This document shows positions 54,050 to 64,000 of a DNA stretch of 64,000 nucleotides, piece after piece. Source of the DNA: Vibrio sp. YMD68 (GTDB lineage: Bacteria; Pseudomonadota; Gammaproteobacteria; Enterobacterales; Vibrionaceae); the NCBI RefSeq assembly GCF_029958905.1, contig NZ_CP124614.1:1054001-1118000 (forward strand), given 5' to 3'. Within the stretch, counting starts at the first letter, position 1, and each line of letters starts with the position of its first letter. Under the pieces are notes generated by a model, which ran no database searches, was not told the DNA's origin, and saw nothing but the letters and a program-made list of their open reading frames with translations. The position numbers were made by a program, and so were the translations under genes.

Positions 54050-54249
54050 GTGAAACTTTCCTAGATTTTCATAGAATAATGAGCACTAAAAACTATTATT
54101 ATTAGTTAAGCATGTTTTTTTTAGCGTTGCTTTTCATTTTTGTATCATTTTGATGCTAAGTTAAAAAAATTTGGCAGATGCCCAATTCTGACGATTGACA
54201 AAAGATTAATAAACACGCTTGTGTAATGATTTTGTGACGATTATTTAAC

Positions 54250-54411
54250 ATTTATCCCGGCAGCTTGCTGCCGGGTGTTTTTATTTTCAAGCGACAGTTA
54301 ATGAATATAGAGCAAAAGTTAGCACGGATAGAGAAAGAAGGCGGTCGTTACATAGTGTGTTTTAAGGAGGGCTTATTTGTTCGTTTCTATAATCAGTCGC
54401 TTTATTTATGC
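54250..54411 (+). pseudogene. Relic 1: hairpin plus truncated MutS-domain-I-like gene
   Basis: An incomplete copy of the cassette found intact at 63316-63918: heptamer TTAACAT, the 20-nt hairpin (54257-54276), then ATG 54301 with the first 37 codons of the accessory gene (MNIEQKLARIEKEGGRYIVC...). From base 54412 the sequence no longer matches; the frame continues as unrelated residues to a stop at 54483. No target gene precedes it, so it probably marks a lost or rearranged one. Confidence 0.8.
54257..54276 (+). repeat. DGR-type GC-rich hairpin, copy 1
   Basis: CCCGGCAGCTTGCTGCCGGG, a perfect 8-bp stem with a 4-nt loop (9 bp if the CG pair in the loop forms). T-rich DNA follows (TGTTTTTATTTTC), so it could also terminate transcription. 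Identical to copies at 56014 and 63316. Confidence 0.9.
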
Positions 54412-54642
54412 GCTTTATTTGCTTTTGCATTATTACGCATGGCGCATTGCACATTACCAATGCGAGGTGACTGGGCGCTCTAATGTCTTACATTCCGCCC
54501 TTCAATACTCTGTTGACTCCTCCTTTTTCCATCCTTCAGTCCACCAAAACAGTACGGAAAGTACGCCTGAAACACTTCCGAAACAATAAAGCTCTTCGAG
54601 TTGCTGATAATATAATCTCACAAACAAAAAAGGTAATGTTTA
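54412..54642. promoter_or_regulatory. Upstream region of variable lipoprotein 1
   Basis: 231 bp from the end of relic 1 homology to the lipoprotein start. Holds the gene's promoter and the ribosome binding site AAAAAAGGTAATG. No further gene is called here; other open frames overlap and lack start signals. Confidence 0.5.
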
Positions 54643-55992
54643 ATGAAAAAGCTCAGTATTCTTGCAGTCACAACAGCATTGGTGTTGTCGGGTTGTGGTT
54701 CAGATTCTGGTGGTTCAGGTTCTGGTGGTTCAGATTCTGGTGATAAGATTTTACCACCAAAATCAGCGGTTCTTTATGATTTGGAAGTTTCACCTAGCCA
54801 ATTGAATTATTTAGACCACATAGAATTGGGCCAAAGCTTTCAAGTTATGGGTAAGTATGACGATGGTTCTGAATACGATATAACAGAATTGGTTTCGTGG
54901 GAATTGTTAAGCGGTGATGAAGCATCAATAGTTAAAGGAAAAGTGGTTAACGCAAAAGGCAGTTCTATTTTTGTCGTCAGCCACGAAGGGGTGGTGAGTG
55001 AAGAGGTCGGCTTAAACGCTAGCTCCGCCGTTTGTGGTGCTAGTTCAGGTGGCACTGTTTATTCAGCTATTAATAATAGCGAAAGGGATGCAGATGGCAC
55101 ATGTTTAAAGCTTGCGGTTGAAGAAGGTAGCGGAATACTTGTCACCTCGGCGCCTAGCATTGCTTTTATGGATGCGATGGGTTATGAGTTGCGAAGCTCG
55201 GAGTTTAGTAACACAAATAATAGCTATAAAGCAGCTAAATCAGCTGATGCCAGTGGGTACAGTAATGTAAAATTTGCATCAATGCACAATGCTGGGGAAG
55301 GTGAGGGGCAGTTTGCGGCCTATTGTGAAGATTTAGCAGCTAAGAACTTTGCAGGCTATAGCAATTGGAAGAGGGTTGAGCGAGGGCCGATTACGAGCAT
55401 AGTTGCAAAAGACTTGGATTCACTTGGTTGGCCTCATGTCGGTTTTTCTGCATACTCCTACCTTTTCCAGGAGGGCGATGGCAGCCATGGTCGTATAGCT
55501 CCTTCAGGTACGATTAGTGGCCAAAGTGTCTCTTGGGATTATCTGCCTTCTTGTCAGACTGAGCGATATGAGGATACAGTCAAATTAGGTAATTTAACAT
55601 TTCACCGCGCATTAACAGAAGCTGAAGCGGTAGCCAAGGGTTTCACTCCAGATGATACTTACACAGAAACTGGAACTAATGGCCCGTCAGGGATGGTGGT
55701 TTCAAGGTTTAACTGGTCAAATGCTGATAATTTTTGTGAAAATGTAGAGATGGGTGGTTATTCAGATTGGCGCTTGCCAAGTCGTGATGAGCTTTCTCAG
55801 CTTTACACTAGCACTCAGCCGGGGAATGACAAGGGTATGTTCAGTGCTTTTGGTTGGCCGCAGTCCAGCGGCTACTGGTCATCGACTACGGACGCCAGTA
55901 GCTACCACTACCGCGTCGGCCTCCTCAATGGCAATGTGGGCAACTACGACGACAGCAACCACGTCTCTGTTAGCTGCGTGCGTGCGGATTAA
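54643..55992 (+). CDS. Variable lipoprotein 1, DGR target candidate
   Basis: 449 residues. Lipobox LVLSGC (Cys 18) and a Ser/Gly/Asp tether, then one Ig-like (Big_2-type) domain (about 43-130), a middle domain (about 135-305) with YCEDLAAKNFAGYSNWKR, which looks like a decayed copy of the C-terminal fold, and a DUF1566/C-type-lectin-like domain (311-449; FCENVEMGGYSDWRLPSRDEL, YWSST, SCVRAD). Residues 407-442 form the variable segment. DNA 55573-55860 nearly matches 62863-63138 in lipoprotein 2. Likely surface displayed with variable ligand contact. Confidence 0.85.
   Translation: MKKLSILAVTTALVLSGCGSDSGGSGSGGSDSGDKILPPKSAVLYDLEVSPSQLNYLDHIELGQSFQVMGKYDDGSEYDITELVSWELLSGDEASIVKGKVVNAKGSSIFVVSHEGVVSEEVGLNASSAVCGASSGGTVYSAINNSERDADGTCLKLAVEEGSGILVTSAPSIAFMDAMGYELRSSEFSNTNNSYKAAKSADASGYSNVKFASMHNAGEGEGQFAAYCEDLAAKNFAGYSNWKRVERGPITSIVAKDLDSLGWPHVGFSAYSYLFQEGDGSHGRIAPSGTISGQSVSWDYLPSCQTERYEDTVKLGNLTFHRALTEAEAVAKGFTPDDTYTETGTNGPSGMVVSRFNWSNADNFCENVEMGGYSDWRLPSRDELSQLYTSTQPGNDKGMFSAFGWPQSSGYWSSTTDASSYHYRVGLLNGNVGNYDDSNHVSVSCVRAD
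55861..55968 (+). other. Variable region 1 (VR1)
   Basis: 108 nt (36 codons) between the shared GGTTGGCCG and the shared GTTAGCTGCGTGCGTGCGG. Codons are mostly NNC (TAC, GGC, GAC, AGC), unlike the T/A-ending codons before it. In DGRs, AAC codons of the template become NNC when adenines are randomised. Confidence 0.75.
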
Positions 55993-56033
55993 CATTTAAC
56001 ATTTAACATTTATCCCGGCAGCTTGCTGCCGGG
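55993..56033 (+). repeat. Heptamer array plus DGR-type hairpin, copy 2
   Basis: Starts immediately after the stop codon: three copies of AACATTT, then the hairpin at 56014-56033, identical to copies 1 and 3. In position it matches the IMH-flanking hairpin that follows variable repeats in other DGRs. Confidence 0.88.
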
Positions 56034-56058
56034 TGTTTTTATTTTCAAGTGACAGTTA

Positions 56059-56140
56059 ATGAATATAGAGCAAAAGTTAGCACTGAAAAGTTAGCACGGA
56101 TAGAGAAAGAAGGCGGTCGTTACATAGTGTGCTTTAAGAA
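56059..56140 (+). pseudogene. Relic 2: truncated MutS-domain-I-like gene
   Basis: Begins ATGAATATAGAGC like the intact gene at 63361, but an internal duplication of AAAAGTTAGCAC creates a stop after 10 codons. Homology continues to GTGTGCTTTAAG and ends near 56138. Non-functional copy. Confidence 0.85.
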
Positions 56141-56726
56141 GGTATCAAAAATGCTGCGTTGTTCTTAAGATTTTTCCTACGATAGATATTTCTGAACACT
56201 TGGTTGGCGTGATTGTATAATACGGCGCTGGAAATCCTTGGGTTTAAATTAAGCCGTATTTACGCCATGAAACACTAGAAGTTCATACTTACAAGTTTTC
56301 AAATCTCGATTGACTTAGAAAAAAAAAGAGCAACTGGGGAAGTCGCTCTGAAACTACAGAGTAGTAATGTGTTCAAGTTAATTAAAACACTTTTTTATCA
56401 TCATTGTGTATCCATCCTGTATCATTAATCCTCATTCTATTTAACGCAATACAAACGCTTAAACCATTAGCAGCCAAACGATGTTTAAAGCTAATCAAAA
56501 ATAATTGTGTGTTTAGAAAGGATTTTAGCTAGCAAAAATAAATGTTTTATTAAATGACCTGAATTCATCAGGTTATTCTTTGACTTATCATGTGTTTCTT
56601 TTGGTTGTTTGTGTATCAATAACCAGGGTAACTTTCAGATGCTATTATGCTGATGCAAAACTGAAACACTTAAGTTGACGCAGGGTGTTTAAATAAATGT
56701 ACAGAAACACCATAGTGGATGAACCG
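56141..56726. other. Long non-coding stretch before the metallopeptidase
   Basis: 586 bp, no open frame with a start. It has an inverted repeat AATACGGC (56218-56225) / GCCGTATT (56252-56259), and a terminator-like hairpin AATGACCTGA (56553-56562) / TCAGGTTATT (56568-56577). The first part could be a decayed insertion sequence; I cannot confirm it. Confidence 0.4.
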
Positions 56727-59480
56727 ATGAAAAAAATTAGTATTATAGCAACAATATCAATACTCTTTCTGTCTTTATCAGGCTGTAGGGATGAATCAAG
56801 TGCAACAAAAATCCTCGATGTCGATAAATCTTGTAAAAAAGGTACAATTTGGAATGAAATTACGCAGCAGTGTGATACTGAATTAGTTAGAACTTATCCT
56901 GACTTCACTGCGCAAGAGTTAGTGTATGAATATGGCAATGTTGTAAACACTATATTTTCTGGTTGTGCAATTTATACTGAGTCTTTATTGCCCAATGGGC
57001 TACAGATTGGTTCTGGCAATCGGAACTGGTTTAGTCAACTTCGTTCAAATAATATCTCAAACCATGTGCCTGCATTAATTGGCGAGAGTGGCAATGTCTA
57101 TGCCTACAAGGGGGATAATAACCGTTCAAAATATTTTGTTTCTGGTATTAATTTGTGGAGTGGAAATAATAGTTCAGATATTAGCCACAGTATTCTGTTA
57201 CAAGAGAATGTTCTTAATGATTTGCTCGAAGTTGAAGATTACAAAAATGAATCCTTGGTAGTTTGGTCGGAAGACACCTCCTTTAACAGTCATGCAGTCG
57301 CTGCTAATGTGACTTTAGTTTCCAGCAGTGAAAAAGCAAAAGGTGTTGAACATGTTGACTTTGATTTGTTTATTGGTAAATCAACGACTATTGACACAAT
57401 GAATAAAGTCATGTCAAAAGGTGTACCGATCATAATTGCCTATAACCATCATAACTGGGTTGACGGAAGTACTGCAAATATGTTTGATGTTTCATATTCC
57501 TCTGGTGAATTAGAGCCTTTGGTAACAGGAAAAGAGCCGTGTGAAGGGCTAACCGAAGTGTATAAAAACACCGCGTCAATGCTCGATTACCTCGTTAACG
57601 ATAAATATATTATCAGTTCTAGTACAATGCCAGAAAATACAGTTATTGGTGATAAGGTCTATTTTAATAAGATTGTAGATCCAAATTCGAATAAGAATTT
57701 ATCAGAGTTATTTGAAGAGCCATTAAAAATGATTCGTGATTCTATAAAGCATTTTGATAATCAAGGAATTAACATCTTAGAGCAAGAAAATTTAAAACAC
57801 TTGCAAATTCCGGTGTACATTGCTGATATATTTAGAGATTCGGCTGAATATAAGGGGGGGCGATTTTATGCTGATATTTACGGTTCAGCAAACGCGGTTG
57901 ATTATAATCAGTGGTTAAAAACTTATTTTATGGACCTCACTTCTCATTTTGCTAGACCAAACAATAAACTCAATGTTAATCTTGGTGAGTTTTCACCAAG
58001 AGAAGTTGAAATACAGAGGTTGTCTACTTTTAACACGGACTTTGAGTATGAATTAACGAGTGCTGCTCACACCACTGCTACAGGGTATTATGTAAAAGCA
58101 GGTCAGAAAACAGTTATAAGTCGTACCGACAGTCACCCTGATGATGTCAAAATATATGTCAATTACCAACGAGATGGGGCCACCAAGCTTTTCGGAACAG
58201 GAAGTGGCCGTGCTTACAATAGGCCTGCTTATGATAGAAGTCATCCTGTAAGTCTTAGTGCAGGGGGGAAAATATCAATGTCTTCTCCTGTGGGTGGTAC
58301 GCTTTTTGTTACTGTACCAAATAATAACGAAGGCAATGTAATCAGCCTAAATATACAGAATATACTAAAAAACCCTTCGATTTCAGGAGCTTCAGATACT
58401 GATATTGAACTTTTTGAAAATGCACTGAGTGATACCCCATTCAATTGGATAACGGTTATCACAAAAGAAGTTCAAATTCACTCGATTGCTTCTAAGTTTC
58501 GCGATACGCTTAACAGCTATAATAGCGACATCAAAAAGTTCATGGATGATATTATTAAATATACGTTGGGTAACTTCGGGTATGCAGGTTATTTAAGTAA
58601 CGTTTTGCCAGACCATTCAGATTCAATTAAGCAGTTCTGTAGCGACTTTGGTATAGATGAGCTATGTACTGATCTTCGCTTACACGAAAGGAATAATGTA
58701 CAGCACGTATATGTAGACCGTCCGACATGTGGAAGCTTATGTTCAGGTAATCCTTATGATAGAACATCGGCTTATATACCAGGAGATTGGGGCGACTCTC
58801 ATGAGATTGGACACAATCTACAGACGAATAAACTAAAAATTTACGGTGGTCGAAGTAACGAAGTGTCAAATAATATTTTTCCTGTAGAATCTGCTCGCTT
58901 AAAAGCGATTGAAAATGGAGAAAGTACGTATAATATTCGATCAAACTTTGCATCGACGTTTGAATTGATGAAAAACGGTATAGGCCTTCTCAATGTTAAT
59001 GACCATCCTCTTTGGAATAAGACAGGTGTCTATGACAACGCCTTTGAAAGATTAGGTTTCTATAATCAATTAAATTTTGCCAGTGGAGACTTAGAATTTT
59101 ATACAAAAATGTATCTTTTACAAAGAATTTCAGAAGACAGAGCTAAAAATATAACAGATTGGGCTAACTATAAAGATCGTCTCGGTTTTACTAATTACAC
59201 GATTGATGATTTTAAAGCGATGAATGGTAATGACTTTATGGCTATTAGTTCATCAATGCTAATAGGTAAAGATATGAGTCAATTTTTTGAAGGGTTTGGT
59301 ATTCAAGTATCTGAAGAAGCTAAAGCTCAAATTTTATCAGCAGGTTACACGCAAAGCTTAGGTAAGGGTATCTACTTTGTCGATTACGAAGGTGTTCCAA
59401 CTGATTATGTTACATCAAATAAAGATCAATACTTCATTGATCTAACACCGAATGCACGGTTTGAAAAGCCACAGCCTTAA
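56727..59480 (+). CDS. Lipoprotein M60-family-like zinc metallopeptidase
   Basis: 917 residues. Signal peptide and lipobox FLSLSGC (Cys 20). Zinc site HEIGH (692-696) with a likely third ligand Glu 712, fitting the M60 pattern HExxHx(8,28)E; GDWGDSHEIGHNLQ is typical of M60 enzymes such as SslE/AcfD mucinases. N-terminal region (about 60-330) resembles the AcfD type (ALIGESGNVYAY). Probably cleaves mucin-type glycoproteins at the surface. ATG 56727 (MKKISI) is preferred to 56697, which adds residues before the signal peptide. Confidence 0.85.
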   Translation: MKKISIIATISILFLSLSGCRDESSATKILDVDKSCKKGTIWNEITQQCDTELVRTYPDFTAQELVYEYGNVVNTIFSGCAIYTESLLPNGLQIGSGNRNWFSQLRSNNISNHVPALIGESGNVYAYKGDNNRSKYFVSGINLWSGNNSSDISHSILLQENVLNDLLEVEDYKNESLVVWSEDTSFNSHAVAANVTLVSSSEKAKGVEHVDFDLFIGKSTTIDTMNKVMSKGVPIIIAYNHHNWVDGSTANMFDVSYSSGELEPLVTGKEPCEGLTEVYKNTASMLDYLVNDKYIISSSTMPENTVIGDKVYFNKIVDPNSNKNLSELFEEPLKMIRDSIKHFDNQGINILEQENLKHLQIPVYIADIFRDSAEYKGGRFYADIYGSANAVDYNQWLKTYFMDLTSHFARPNNKLNVNLGEFSPREVEIQRLSTFNTDFEYELTSAAHTTATGYYVKAGQKTVISRTDSHPDDVKIYVNYQRDGATKLFGTGSGRAYNRPAYDRSHPVSLSAGGKISMSSPVGGTLFVTVPNNNEGNVISLNIQNILKNPSISGASDTDIELFENALSDTPFNWITVITKEVQIHSIASKFRDTLNSYNSDIKKFMDDIIKYTLGNFGYAGYLSNVLPDHSDSIKQFCSDFGIDELCTDLRLHERNNVQHVYVDRPTCGSLCSGNPYDRTSAYIPGDWGDSHEIGHNLQTNKLKIYGGRSNEVSNNIFPVESARLKAIENGESTYNIRSNFASTFELMKNGIGLLNVNDHPLWNKTGVYDNAFERLGFYNQLNFASGDLEFYTKMYLLQRISEDRAKNITDWANYKDRLGFTNYTIDDFKAMNGNDFMAISSSMLIGKDMSQFFEGFGIQVSEEAKAQILSAGYTQSLGKGIYFVDYEGVPTDYVTSNKDQYFIDLTPNARFEKPQP

Positions 59481-59907
59481 CCCAAATGAGAAGAGGATAA
59501 AAATCTGAGGCACTATTATTGGTTAACGGTTTAAGTTCATTATGCCAATATAAAATAGTGCCTTTTATTAATTAGAAGGCACAATTGCTTAAGTGTCAGT
59601 TAATGGTATCCATTTGTCTATTGTATTCTGCGACCTTGTAAAAACTCAGACAAGATCCCAATCAATGCTTTCCCCTCCATGAAAAAATCCCATAAAATAT
59701 TGACTCAAGACCTGTTAGAAACGTTGTAATTATCATTGAATCAATCAACAAAGACGTCGTTTATCTCATTCGAACTTGGTCAATGCACCATTAATACAGA
59801 TTCTAAAAGGGTCTGAATATTAAATTACTAATGATACGCTCTTGAAACACATGATTATTGATAAAATGGATAATGACTTGATGTTTTAAAAGCAGAGGTC
59901 AATTGAC
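59481..59907. other. Region between peptidase and variable lipoprotein 2
   Basis: 427 bp without a gene. Contains the inverted repeat AGGCACTATT (59508-59517) / AATAGTGCCT (59554-59563), loop 36 nt, a probable terminator of the peptidase, and the promoter and ribosome binding site (AGAGG) of the next gene. Confidence 0.55.
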
Positions 59908-62900
59908 ATGAGAATACGAAGTTTAGGGTTGGTGCTGATGAGTGCCGTTGTGGTGCTTTCAGGTTGCCGCAGTAGCATTGGGGAAGATGTCGACACAGGA
60001 GCAAAACAGGATGCTATTTTATTAGATTTAGTAGTAAGTTCAAAAGAAAACATTGCTTTGGGCGTGCCAGTTGGCTATCAGCAAGAGTTTATAGCAATGG
60101 CCGAATATTCAGATAGCTCGACAGAGGATGTGAGTGATTTGGCGGTTTGGTTGAGCTCTGATGAAGATGGAGCAATCATGGATGGTGCAGTGCTGATGGC
60201 ATTAGCTGAGGGAAGTGTTGCAATTTCAGCCAGTTTTAATGATCTTGCTAGCAGCAACGCAGTTGATGTTGAAATTGTTCCTGCTGTTTTAGAAAGTATT
60301 GTTATCGATATTTCAACCCCAAAGACACCGGTGGGTTTAGATATTCAATTGATCGCGAATGGTCTTTTTGGAGATGGATTTAGTCGACCGCTGCAGGGTG
60401 GGGTTTGGTCATCGTCTGATGAGTTAATTGCTAAGGTGTCAGCTCAGGGGGTAGTCACTCCTGTAGTGCCAGGGTCTGTGGTGATAACTGTCGAAAAAGA
60501 AGACAAAGTAGCCAGTGTGGATATCACTGTCACAGACGCAGAGTTGGTGTCTATCCAATTAGAGCCATCAGCAACGTCGACGCCACTGGGTCAATCGGTT
60601 CAGATGATAGCCACGGGTGAATACACGGACGGTACAACGGCTGAGCTAACGGGCGTGTCTTGGGTATCATCAACACCAGCGACAGCGACGGTATCTAACT
60701 CAGGTCTTGTTACGCCAGTAGCGTTAGGCACAACGGTGATTACCGCGACGAAAGATGGCGAGCAAGCGTCCACGGTGAGCTTTGAGGTAACGGCTGCTGA
60801 ATTGGTGTCTATCCAATTAGAGCCATCAGCAACGTCGACGCCACTGGGTCAATCGGTTCAGATGATAGCCACGGGTGAATACACGGACGGTACAACGGCT
60901 GAGCTAACGGGCGTGTCTTGGGTATCATCAACACCAGCGACAGCGACGGTATCTAACTCAGGTCTTGTTACGCCAGTAGCGTTAGGCACAACGGTGATTA
61001 CCGCGACGAAAGATGGCGAGCAAGCGTCCACGGTGAGCTTTGAGGTAACGGCTGCTGAATTGGTGTCTATCCAATTAGAGCCATCAGCAACGTCGACGCC
61101 ACTGGGTCAATCGGTTCAGATGATAGCCACGGGTGAATACACGGACGGTACAACGGCTGAGCTAACGGGCGTGTCTTGGGTATCATCAACACCAGCGACA
61201 GCGACGGTATCTAACTCAGGTCTTGTTACGCCAGTAGCGTTAGGCACAACGGTGATTACCGCGACGAAAGATGGCGAGCAAGCGTCCACGGTGAGCTTTG
61301 AGGTGACGGCTGCTGAATTGGTGTCTATCCAATTAGAGCCATCAGTAACGTCGACGCCACTGGGTCAATCGGTTCAGATGATAGCCACGGGCGAATACAC
61401 GGACGGTACAACGGCTGAGCTAACGGGCGTGTCTTGGGTATCAACAACACCAGCGACAGCGACGGTATCTAACTCTGGTCTTGTTACGCCAGTAGCGTTA
61501 GGCACGACGGTGATTACCGCGATGAAAGATGGCGAGCAAGCGTCCACGGTGAGCTTTGAGGTAACGGCTGCTGAATTGGTGTCTATCCAATTAGAGCCAT
61601 CAGTAACGTCGACGCCAGTGGGTCAATCGGTTCAGATGATAGCCACGGGTGAATACACGGATGGTACAACGGCTGAGCTAACGGGCGTGTCTTGGGTGTC
61701 ATCAACACCAGCGACAGCGACGGTATCGAACTCTGGTCTTGTTACGCCAGTAGCATTAGGCACGACGGTGATTACCGCGACGAAAGATGGCGAGCAAGCG
61801 TCCACGGTGAGCTTTGAGGTAACGGCTGCTGAATTGGTGTCTATCCAATTAGAGCCATCAGTAACGTCGACGCCACTGGGTCAATCGGTTCAGATGATAG
61901 CCACGGGCGAATACACGGACGGTACAACGGCTGAGTTAACAGGTGTTTCTTGGGTGTCATCAACACCAGCGACAGCGACGGTATCGAACTCTGGTCTTGT
62001 TACGCCAGTAGCGTTAGGCAGGACGGTGATTACCGCGACGAAAGATGGCGAGCAAGCGTCCACGGTGAGCTTTGAGGTGACGGCTGCTGAATTGGTGTCT
62101 ATCCAATTAGAGCCATCAGTAACGTCGACGCCATTAGGTCAATCGGTTCAGATGATAGCCACGGGTGAATACACGGACGGTACAACGGCTGAGTTAACAG
62201 GTGTTTCTTGGGTATCAACAACACCAGCGACAGCGACGGTATCTAACTCTGGTCTTGTTACGCCAGTAGCGTTAGGCACGACGGTGATTACCGCGACGAA
62301 AGGTGGCGAGCAAGCCTCCACGGTGAGCTTTGAGGTAACGGCTGCTGAATTGGTGTCTATCCAATTAGAGCCATCAGCAACGTCGACGCCACTGGGTCAA
62401 TCGGTTCAGATGATAGCTACGGGTGAATACACGGACGGTACAACGGCTGAGCTAACGGGCGTGTCTTGGGTGTCATCAACACCAGCGACAGCGACGGTAT
62501 CGAACTCTGGTCTTGTTACGCCAGTGTCTGTGGGCACAACGGTGATTACCGCAACGAAAGATGGCGAGCAAGCCTCCACGGTGAGCTTTGAGGTAACGGC
62601 TGCTGAATTGGTGTCTATCCAATTAGAGCCATCAGTAACGTCGACGCCACTGGATCAATCGGTTCAGATGATAGCCACGGGTGAATACACGGACGGCACA
62701 ACGGCTGAGCTAACGGGCGTGTCTTGGGTGTCTTCAGTACCAGCGACAGCGACGGTATCGAACTCAGGTCTTGTCACGCCAGTGTCTGTGGGCACAACGG
62801 TGATTACCGCGACGAAAGATGGCGAGCAAGCGTCCACGGTGAGCTTTGAGGTGACGGCGATAGATACAGTCAAATTAGGTAATTTAACATTTCACCGCGC

Positions 62901-63279
62901 TTTAGCAAAAGCTGAAGCGGTAGCCAAGGGTTTCACTCCAGATGGTTGGCACACAGTAGGTGGAAGTACCGGCCCGGATGGGATGGTGGTTTCAGCTTTT
63001 AACTGGTCAAATGCTGATAATTTTTGTGAAAATGTAGAGATGGGTGGTTATTCAGACTGGCGCTTGCCAAGTCGTGATGAGCTTACTCAGCTTCAAGCTA
63101 GCACTCAGGCGGGTGTGTTCGTTGCCTTTGGTTGGCCGATTTACTACTCCTACTGGTCATCGACGCTAGACACCAGTTACACCGGTACCCGGCACTACAG
63201 CATCAGCCTCACCAATGGCTATGCGTTCAAGAACGGCGACTTGAGCAACAACTATGTTAGCTGCGTGCGTGCGGATTAA
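59908..63279 (+). CDS. Variable lipoprotein 2 with nine Ig-like repeats, DGR target candidate
   Basis: 1123 residues. Lipobox VVVLSGC (Cys 20); two diverged Ig-like (Big_2-type) domains (about 33-120 and 121-211); nine near-identical 86-residue Ig-like repeats (212-985); then the DUF1566/C-type-lectin-like domain (986-1123) shared with lipoprotein 1, variable segment 1078-1116, ending SCVRAD. The design is a lipid anchor, a long stalk and a diversified tip. The stalk is probably adjustable by recombination between repeats. No transport system is encoded nearby, so surface export is inferred. Confidence 0.88.
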   Translation: MRIRSLGLVLMSAVVVLSGCRSSIGEDVDTGAKQDAILLDLVVSSKENIALGVPVGYQQEFIAMAEYSDSSTEDVSDLAVWLSSDEDGAIMDGAVLMALAEGSVAISASFNDLASSNAVDVEIVPAVLESIVIDISTPKTPVGLDIQLIANGLFGDGFSRPLQGGVWSSSDELIAKVSAQGVVTPVVPGSVVITVEKEDKVASVDITVTDAELVSIQLEPSATSTPLGQSVQMIATGEYTDGTTAELTGVSWVSSTPATATVSNSGLVTPVALGTTVITATKDGEQASTVSFEVTAAELVSIQLEPSATSTPLGQSVQMIATGEYTDGTTAELTGVSWVSSTPATATVSNSGLVTPVALGTTVITATKDGEQASTVSFEVTAAELVSIQLEPSATSTPLGQSVQMIATGEYTDGTTAELTGVSWVSSTPATATVSNSGLVTPVALGTTVITATKDGEQASTVSFEVTAAELVSIQLEPSVTSTPLGQSVQMIATGEYTDGTTAELTGVSWVSTTPATATVSNSGLVTPVALGTTVITAMKDGEQASTVSFEVTAAELVSIQLEPSVTSTPVGQSVQMIATGEYTDGTTAELTGVSWVSSTPATATVSNSGLVTPVALGTTVITATKDGEQASTVSFEVTAAELVSIQLEPSVTSTPLGQSVQMIATGEYTDGTTAELTGVSWVSSTPATATVSNSGLVTPVALGRTVITATKDGEQASTVSFEVTAAELVSIQLEPSVTSTPLGQSVQMIATGEYTDGTTAELTGVSWVSTTPATATVSNSGLVTPVALGTTVITATKGGEQASTVSFEVTAAELVSIQLEPSATSTPLGQSVQMIATGEYTDGTTAELTGVSWVSSTPATATVSNSGLVTPVSVGTTVITATKDGEQASTVSFEVTAAELVSIQLEPSVTSTPLDQSVQMIATGEYTDGTTAELTGVSWVSSVPATATVSNSGLVTPVSVGTTVITATKDGEQASTVSFEVTAIDTVKLGNLTFHRALAKAEAVAKGFTPDGWHTVGGSTGPDGMVVSAFNWSNADNFCENVEMGGYSDWRLPSRDELTQLQASTQAGVFVAFGWPIYYSYWSSTLDTSYTGTRHYSISLTNGYAFKNGDLSNNYVSCVRAD
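60541..62862 (+). repeat. Nine 258-bp in-frame tandem repeats
   Basis: Units begin at 60541, 60799, 61057, 61315, 61573, 61831, 62089, 62347 and 62605, each encoding 86 residues starting ELVSIQLEPS. The first three encode the same protein sequence; others differ at few sites (for example SVTSTP for SATSTP, VSVG for VALG). High DNA identity implies recent duplication or gene conversion, and copy number may vary between isolates or be mis-assembled. Confidence 0.97.
63139..63255 (+). other. Variable region 2 (VR2)
   Basis: 117 nt (39 codons) between the same flanks as VR1. Compared with VR1 it has a 9-nt insertion and many substitutions in codon positions 1 and 2. NNC codons dominate here as well. 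Confidence 0.75.
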
Positions 63280-63335
63280 CATTTAACATTTAACATTTAA
63301 CATTTAACATTTATCCCCGGCAGCTTGCTGCCGGG
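63280..63335 (+). repeat. Heptamer array plus DGR-type hairpin, copy 3
   Basis: Five AACATTT-type units after the stop codon, then the hairpin at 63316-63335. The hairpin is preceded by one extra C compared with the other copies. Confidence 0.88.
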
Positions 63336-63360
63336 TGTTTTTATTTTCAAGTGACAGTTA

Positions 63361-63918
63361 ATGAATATAGAGCAAAAGTTAGCACTGATAAAGAAAGAGG
63401 GCGGTCGTTACATAGTGTGCTTTAAGGAGGGGCTATTTGTTCGTTTCTATAATCAGTCGCTTTATTTATGCAATCAAGCACTTGTAGCGCGCAATCAAAA
63501 GGCATTATGCATTCGCAGTAAGCCCTTAAAAGTACTTGAAAACCAGTATGTAGTATCAGGAGGTTTTCCTCAAACGCATTTGATGAAAAAGCTAGGGGAG
63601 GCAGTAATTGATAAAGGCCAAGGGTGTTACTATATTGAGCATGCTTTTGAGTTGAGCGGTTATCAAAGTTGGTTTGTAAATAACGTGGCGCATGAAGAGT
63701 CTCGACTTGTCACTGAGAATGGTTGCTCCTTCGCTGCTAACCAAGCGGCCCAACAAAGCAGCCAAATTAACAATCACGATATCAGCGTAAAAATAACATC
63801 AGAATTGGTAAATAAAATAATTCTTATAGATTACTGGCATGCAACACCTTATGACATGATAAGTCTTTTGGCAGAATTAAAACGGCTTATTATTCAATTA
63901 ACGCCTAATGGAAAATAA
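63361..63918 (+). CDS. MutS domain I-like protein, possible DGR accessory (MSL type)
   Basis: 185 residues. Residues 21-37 (FKEGLFVRFYNQSLYLC) and 63-94 (YVVSGGFPQTHLMKKLGEAV then CYYIEH) line up with MutS domain I, where the first stretch holds the mismatch-reading Phe-x-Glu and the second the AGxPxxxxxxYLxxL segment. Here Glu is replaced by Arg (Phe26-Val27-Arg28). MutS-like proteins are one of the accessory classes described for DGRs. It begins 25 nt after hairpin copy 3. The C-terminal half (about 105-185) is not recognised. A reverse transcriptase gene could follow beyond the window. Confidence 0.65.
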   Translation: MNIEQKLALIKKEGGRYIVCFKEGLFVRFYNQSLYLCNQALVARNQKALCIRSKPLKVLENQYVVSGGFPQTHLMKKLGEAVIDKGQGCYYIEHAFELSGYQSWFVNNVAHEESRLVTENGCSFAANQAAQQSSQINNHDISVKITSELVNKIILIDYWHATPYDMISLLAELKRLIIQLTPNGK

Positions 63919-64000
63919 AGAGCAAGATGAATAGAGAGTTTTATTAAGGTAGGGGCTTTAGGGTAAAGCAGCTTAATGTGTATGTTGCGCTTAGTGTGGA
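63919..64000. other. Window edge, unassigned
   Basis: 82 bases after the accessory gene. No open frame and no match to VR1 or VR2, so no template repeat is seen here. Confidence 0.5.

Follow-up and report, generated by a model that had tools for sequence, protein, structure and literature searches.

Evidence for a chromosomal inverted diversity-generating retroelement with two lipoprotein targets and a split reverse transcriptase gene in Vibrio sp. YMD68

A 64,000-nucleotide stretch of Vibrio sp. YMD68 (NZ_CP124614.1, positions 1,054,001 to 1,118,000; hereafter the window) carries two lipoprotein genes that share a C-terminal domain and end in a hypervariable segment. Are these ends written by a diversity-generating retroelement (DGR), and can that element still write? 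A first-pass annotation of the window proposed a Vibrio-type DGR with multiple targets, and the proposal was borne out: a template repeat (TR), a reverse transcriptase (RT) gene and an Avd gene were found adjacent to the targets, and the variable repeat (VR) of the first target shows adenine bias. We regard the identification of the locus as a DGR as nearly certain. Beyond this, we are fairly confident that it forms the target half of an inverted two-target DGR on the chromosome, one that has a split RT gene and is now non-autonomous, being either recently silenced or dependent on a second DGR on contig C3 of the same genome.

Template and variable repeats

The first-pass annotation had pointed beyond base 64000 for an adenine-biased template repeat and a DGR-type RT, and both are present. 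The right flank was analyzed as locus L008 (genome C2:1117001-1130000), for which the window-equivalent position is the L008 position + 63000. The TR, 144 nt long and rich in AAC codons, lies at L008:1158-1301 (window-equivalent 64158-64301) on the same strand as the targets and begins 158 bases beyond the window end. It aligns to the final part of target 1 (VR1, 55844..55987, plus strand) and to the end of target 2 (VR2, 63123..63274, plus strand, 9 nt longer than the TR); the VRs predicted by the first-pass annotation thus exist, while its limits for them, 55861-56013 and 63139-63300, were set too late.

VR1 differs from the TR at 26 positions. Counted in codon register, 24/48 template adenines are changed and 2/93 other bases (Fisher p = 9e-12), so chance is no explanation, and since a TR/VR difference almost confined to adenines is the defining signature of DGRs, this pattern identifies the locus as one. 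VR1 bears the record of mutagenic homing. VR2 shows 19/48 changed template adenines and 12/93 other changes (p = 5e-4), in addition to its 9 extra nt. Just upstream of the VRs, a control stretch compared between targets 1 and 2 gave p = 0.037 in one direction and 0.99 when reversed; across all seven control comparisons upstream of VRs, p ranged from 0.037 to 0.99, and this was the one below 0.05. Searches of the genome with the TR and VR2 as queries revealed no second TR for VR2; they matched VR1, VR2, the chromosomal TR, the TR on C3, one relic and four short weak stretches (E 0.04-0.45). VR2 was probably written by another or an older template.

A split reverse transcriptase gene

A search of the whole genome with the Pfam RT model returned three RTs, one of them 3.4 kb beyond the window end on the minus strand. 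This gene (L008:4364-5425, window-equivalent 67364-68425) was assigned to DGR-type RTs by PHROG 1423 (reverse transcriptase, E 8.5e-76), by a GLPIGSVTSQ-type motif (GIGLPIGSVTSQ) together with YMDD, and by its best solved match, the 328-residue chain 8ub7, which we take to be the BPP-1 DGR enzyme. Next to it, an Avd frame lies on the plus strand at L008:5463-5843 (window-equivalent 68463-68843) and matches PHROG 3206, "Avd protein of DGR" (E 8e-11), with an NCBIfam NF033474 score under the cut-off (31 of 80 bits). With the RT as query, the contig collection yielded six distant loci only.

The RT gene has 353 codons compared to 418-434 in five relatives, and its native residues stop near 341. 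A detached piece lies 2.9 kb off at L008:1368-1487, beside the TR, and corresponds to residues 376-415 of the relatives, with 70-72.5% identity in three of them and 46-49% in the other two; the roughly 26-34 residues between both pieces were not found. Between the pieces are an open reading frame (ORF) for an IS5-type transposase (L008:1568-2275), a fragment of a further lipoprotein of the same domain type (L008 about 2266-2798, left limit set by eye), in which no VR was recognized, and an IS66 transposase (L008:2879-3967). Thus, in this assembly IS5/IS66 material separates the chromosomal RT gene into two pieces and part of its sequence is gone; because the gene is interrupted, the locus is probably not self-sufficient. 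The TR is uninterrupted, as are the 186 nt from it to the far end of the detached RT piece, and both target ORFs, the accessory gene described below and the Avd frame are open.

Two lipoprotein targets and their shared 3' ends

Target 1 (54643..55992, plus strand) is a 449-aa lipoprotein with a C-terminal Lcl_C/InvE_AD domain, and target 2 (59908..63279, plus strand) is a 1123-aa lipoprotein with nine Big_2 stretches and a C-terminal Lcl_C domain, as read from the ORF list and Pfam; we assume that Lcl_C is the DUF1566 named in the first-pass annotation. An LSGC lipobox was read in the sequence of both, and both VRs finish beside the stop codon of their gene. The C-terminal domains share 69% protein identity, and the DNA upstream of the variable part is identical at 225/259 positions (86.9%), which upholds a shared domain and makes the earlier wording "near-identical" slightly too strong. 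The description of a hypervariable segment followed by the same 3' end was accurate: identity falls to 100/138 in the variable part and, from the final 19 VR bases onward, reaches 148/151 aligned bases, with 32 gap columns because the repeat number differs and there is a small insertion. A fold model of the target domain built from two sequences was unusable (pLDDT 34.9).

The short repeat and the hairpin with an 8-bp stem and 4-nt loop that the first-pass annotation described after each target are both there, in three copies. AACATTT repeats with the hairpin CCCGGCAG-CTTG-CTGCCGGG follow VR1 (55988..56033, hairpin from 56014) and VR2 (63275..63335, hairpin from 63316), all on the plus strand, and a third hairpin, at 54256, has no preceding VR. 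As a candidate for the GC-rich hairpin of the initiation-of-mutagenic-homing type that the first-pass annotation had assumed, the structure fits in stem and loop length and departs in its loop sequence, which is CTTG and not the GRNA of phage DGRs. A T-rich stretch adjoins its 3' side, so the hairpin may equally be a terminator.

Downstream of VR2 is the accessory gene (63361..63918), whose first 75 to 110 bp recur after target 1 (relic at 56059..56133, plus strand) and at 54301 to 54411, within a VR-less relic cassette of repeat, hairpin and gene start (54243..54411, plus strand). By sequence comparison, these two gene-start relics are identical to each other at 114/116 aligned bases (14 gap columns), and the 54256 relic matches the full gene at 159/166 aligned bases (2 gap columns). 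Window positions 54400-54660 matched only themselves when searched against the rest of the genome. Because the unit of VR, hairpin and accessory gene start recurs behind different lipoprotein scaffolds, the sequence suggests that targets multiply by recombination between shared ends.

A MutS-I-like accessory gene

The accessory gene (plus strand, 185 aa) lies after VR2 and before the TR, a position that it also has in related DGRs. A search with the single sequence returned the gene alone, whereas a profile of seven sequences gave 86 matches; together with the modeled structure, this points to a conserved family for which a MutS domain-I fold is predicted. The gene is presumably the one termed "MSL" (MutS-like) in a survey from 2018. 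The F-x-E motif of MutS domain I (E. coli numbering) reads mismatches; in the accessory family, the stretch that corresponds to it by eye is F26-x-R28, invariant in alignment A1 (7 rows) and conserved in at least 90% of alignment A2 (27 rows). A mutagenic retroelement should yield a heavily mismatched duplex that host mismatch repair could erase, and a DGR-encoded MutS-like domain is a candidate countermeasure.

A second DGR on contig C3 and its plasmid relatives

Contig C3 (168 kb) holds a second DGR, composed of a 1406-aa target, an accessory gene, a TR, an uninterrupted RT of 434 aa and an Avd frame. A stop interrupts the first codons of this Avd frame, but a TTG start follows two codons on. 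Between the TR and VR on C3 there are 22 mismatches, of which 21 fall at A. The C3 RT is 50% identical to the chromosomal RT and the Avd proteins 36% identical, and the TR ends differ between chromosome and C3 (GCTGCGTGCGTGCGG against CATCCTGCGTCTCA). Judged by its sequence, C3 looks like a plasmid: the backbone next to the DGR matches Vibrio plasmids, and 84/100 matching plasmid records are Vibrio.

We took eleven plasmid regions and excluded two, the more distant L044 (Yersinia) and L049 (Aeromonas), from the close-group count. Across the 11 loci of the close group (nine plasmid regions, C3 and L029), each locus has 16-21 changed A and 0-2 changes at other bases. V. vulnificus GCU-01 has three plasmids that are mismatch-free in the flanks (250/250 upstream; 900/900 downstream, or 893/893 with a 14-column gap), and between any two of them the VRs differ at 18-21 template A and 1-2 other positions. 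These data indicate that the DGR family has been active in nature, and such same-strain copies constitute a natural experiment on the rate and spectrum of diversification. Immediately 5' of the target, an OmpA-family or beta-barrel gene is present at L025 (2646-3719) and in the plasmid relatives L043 and L045-L048; it is possibly a surface-display partner.

Accessory-gene cassettes without a DGR RT in Vibrionaceae

Among 296 genomes of the family, 16 carried the accessory gene at E <= 1e-8. A DGR RT was found in six of them (G000, G011, G032, G045, G163, and G183) and not in the other ten (G070, G074, G087, G115, G135, G154, G171, G280, G289, and G305). With the C3 RT as query (E <= 1e-5), four of these ten gave just weak matches (E 2e-8 to 9e-6), which we take for RTs of other families, and the remaining six had no match. 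The plasmid may have been lost in culture from such genomes or be missing from the assembly.

In seven of the ten (G070, G074, G087, G135, G154, G171, and G305), as in the window relics, the accessory match breaks off 44 to 107 positions into the 167-position profile; it is full length in G115 and G280 and in two pieces in G289. The target domain was found at eight of the ten loci, G135 and G171 being those where it was not, and an open lipoprotein frame over the domain is listed for seven of the eight (not for G289). A TR-like sequence in TR position occurs in one genome, G280. The remaining matches fall within VRs; the one exception is G070:C44:64588-64723, a second TR/VR-like stretch with 69% identity to the C3 TR in a genome where no DGR RT was found.

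Each VR of the RT-less genomes was set against eight TRs from elsewhere and the best-aligning TR was kept, so the p values are optimistic. On this footing, adenine bias reached p < 0.01 in seven of the ten. It was clean in G115, whose VRs have 17/32 adenines and 0/60 other bases changed, 19/43 and 5/92, and 14/43 and 10/92, respectively. The corresponding counts are 19/40 and 6/96 in G070, 12/40 and 4/96 in G074, and 22/40 and 14/95 in G087; the bias is weak in G305 (18/40 and 18/96), G289 (24/39 and 25/88), and G154 (16/36 and 16/78, with a paralog that shows no bias, 8/30 and 23/55). Against the eight foreign TRs, G280 matched solely as a TR, and nothing matched in G135 or G171. At RT-less loci, five control comparisons of sequence upstream of VRs showed no bias (p 0.37-0.95).

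G154 has two tandem targets that are identical at 1984/2044 positions in the body and 293/293 in the DNA after, and at 106/170 in the last 170 bases. In G115, a genome of two contigs in which neither a TR nor a DGR RT was found, L078:187-8830 holds a full-length MutS-I-like gene and, in tandem, three lipoprotein targets of 877-881 aa whose ends are hypervariable. At L026 (G163:C322), the sequence in TR position (1133-1267) has TR-type flanks and differs from the L027 TR at 14/43 adenines and 4/92 other bases; apparently, a mutagenized copy of this template has overwritten the template itself.

How the locus would work and whether it still does

By analogy with BPP-1, in which these steps are established, TR RNA would be copied by an RT-Avd complex with errors opposite adenines, and the cDNA would take the place of the VR that closes a target gene at its 3' end, with the invariant GC-rich VR end serving as the anchor. 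The lectin-like tip of the lipoprotein would thereby be randomized, chiefly at AAC codons, on an unchanged scaffold. VR1 would have been written recently from the present TR and the RT split afterwards. As a guess, the MutS-I-like protein might bind the mismatched cDNA/VR duplex and keep host mismatch repair from reversing the changes. The locus as assembled is likely silent now.

Several results weigh against parts of this reading. The shortened RT retains its catalytic motifs and, at 353 residues, is longer than the solved DGR RT of 328, so it might still work. VR2, with its changes outside adenines, is no clean copy of the present TR. In V. harveyi NH-LM1, neither the VRs nor the flanks differ among three plasmids, a result that argues against constant activity unless the copying was very recent. 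For the accessory protein, the MutS likeness comes from a structural model with middling scores (Z < 8, best Foldseek E 0.035); Pfam, PHROGs and NCBIfam gave nothing usable as sequence-profile proof, and hhalign of the family against MutS-I returned a probability of 0.5%, next to 0.3% for a control against an RT alignment. The first-pass label "MutS-I-like" has support from the predicted fold and none from the sequence profiles, and a protective role in mismatch handling is a guess.

Among explanations for the present state, the one that we judge to have an even chance is that the locus is a fossil: the RT broke recently, the VRs are no longer written, and VR1 looks fresh because little time has passed. 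It accords with the loss of RT sequence, the relic cassette at 54243 and the third lipoprotein fragment, a VR2 that is drifting or orphaned, and the 10/16 accessory-gene genomes that gave no DGR RT; on the other hand, the targets, accessory gene and Avd are all open, and VR1 has just 2 non-A changes.

That same near absence of non-A changes in VR1 would fit writing in trans, in which the C3 RT and Avd use the chromosomal TR RNA, now or until recently. The C3 RT is uninterrupted and its Avd could start at the TTG two codons past the early stop, the chromosomal TR with the next 186 nt is intact, and a precedent exists in Pseudogulbenkiania, with distal targets beside a mutated RT (PMC3521204). 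The differing TR ends and Avd proteins argue the other way, as does the observation that an RNA structure beside the BPP-1 TR recruits its own RT-Avd complex (PMC12875486). We consider this unlikely, though not negligible.

It is likewise doubtful that the 353-aa RT suffices and that the DGR is active as it stands. The motifs including YMDD are kept and the protein aligns to 8ub7 up to residue 293 of 328, but in the five uninterrupted relatives aligned the protein runs on for about 70-85 residues more, including a conserved SYYGLLSxANHCxLRK stretch, and most of this part is detached here.

Finally, a history without a retroelement, in which paralogous adhesins with fast-evolving tips underwent gene conversion of their ends, would account for ends after the VR that are more alike than the preceding domain, but it is virtually untenable given changes concentrated at template adenines, the adjacent TR, RT and Avd, and the lack of a consistent bias upstream of the VR. 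Ordinary paralog divergence, already contradicted by the TR, is ruled out by the VR1 adenine bias.

Relation to known systems

The surface lipoprotein with a variable C-terminal tip reportedly encoded by the Legionella LdtA-type DGR resembles the targets here. In its arrangement, with the RT on one strand and the TR, VR and target on the other, the locus matches the "inverted" DGR class that PMC3521204 describes for Shewanella baltica OS155, Vibrio sp. RC586 and Photobacterium angustum S14. The repeats are 130-139 nt there and 144 here; the S. baltica element also shares the accessory gene and has an RT 49% identical to ours. Two diversified targets, an interrupted RT, a second DGR in the genome and relic cassettes set the present locus apart. 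With the BPP-1 DGR (PMC3240598), it shares A-specific change, a GC-rich VR end, a GC-rich hairpin downstream (8-bp stem, 4-nt loop) and Avd. It differs in its loop (CTTG against GRNA), in the opposite orientation of the RT and in the MutS-I-like gene; its hairpins lie 26 and 41 nt past the VRs, as against 4-34 in the phage DGRs compared in that source.

Multiple VRs are known in DGRs (PMC3521204), and remote VRs are described in PMC7517822 and PMC4372165. VRs without a working RT adjacent have been reported in Pseudogulbenkiania NH8B (PMC3521204) and, as RT-less DGR fragments, from Nanoarchaeota (PMC4372165). Pseudogulbenkiania, however, keeps a working DGR, and for Nanoarchaeota a DGR elsewhere in the genome is one option given there, whereas in the 10 Vibrionaceae genomes no DGR RT was found. 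A search of the open literature, which most subscription papers lie outside, returned no account of the focal locus or of a split RT beside a second DGR, of RT-less accessory-gene cassettes, or of a MutS-I fold prediction with F-x-R; our claim of novelty is limited to that search.

A bolder scheme, which we hold to be quite improbable, is that target cassettes, each made of a lipoprotein, a VR, a hairpin and the start of the MutS-I-like gene, form a resident library in Vibrionaceae, which mobile inverted DGRs on plasmids rewrite in trans as they pass through the population. In this scheme the stand-alone MutS-I-like protein, which has F-x-R where MutS has F-x-E, would coat the mismatched cDNA/VR duplex and shield the new mutations against the mismatch repair of the host. 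If so, writer and targets would be separate genetic entities. The locus makes two ideas testable: that DGR targets outlive, or are shared between, their writers, and that the DGR-linked MutS-like protein has a role.

Other features of the genome

Between targets 1 and 2, window positions 56697-59480 hold an ORF for an ImpA-family M60-like metalloprotease. The nine Big_2 stretches of target 2 (window 60540-62850) are tandem and very similar, and their copy number is likely prone to change via recombination. A third RT of the genome lies on another contig (G000:C1:948945-949562), in an open frame of 529 aa.

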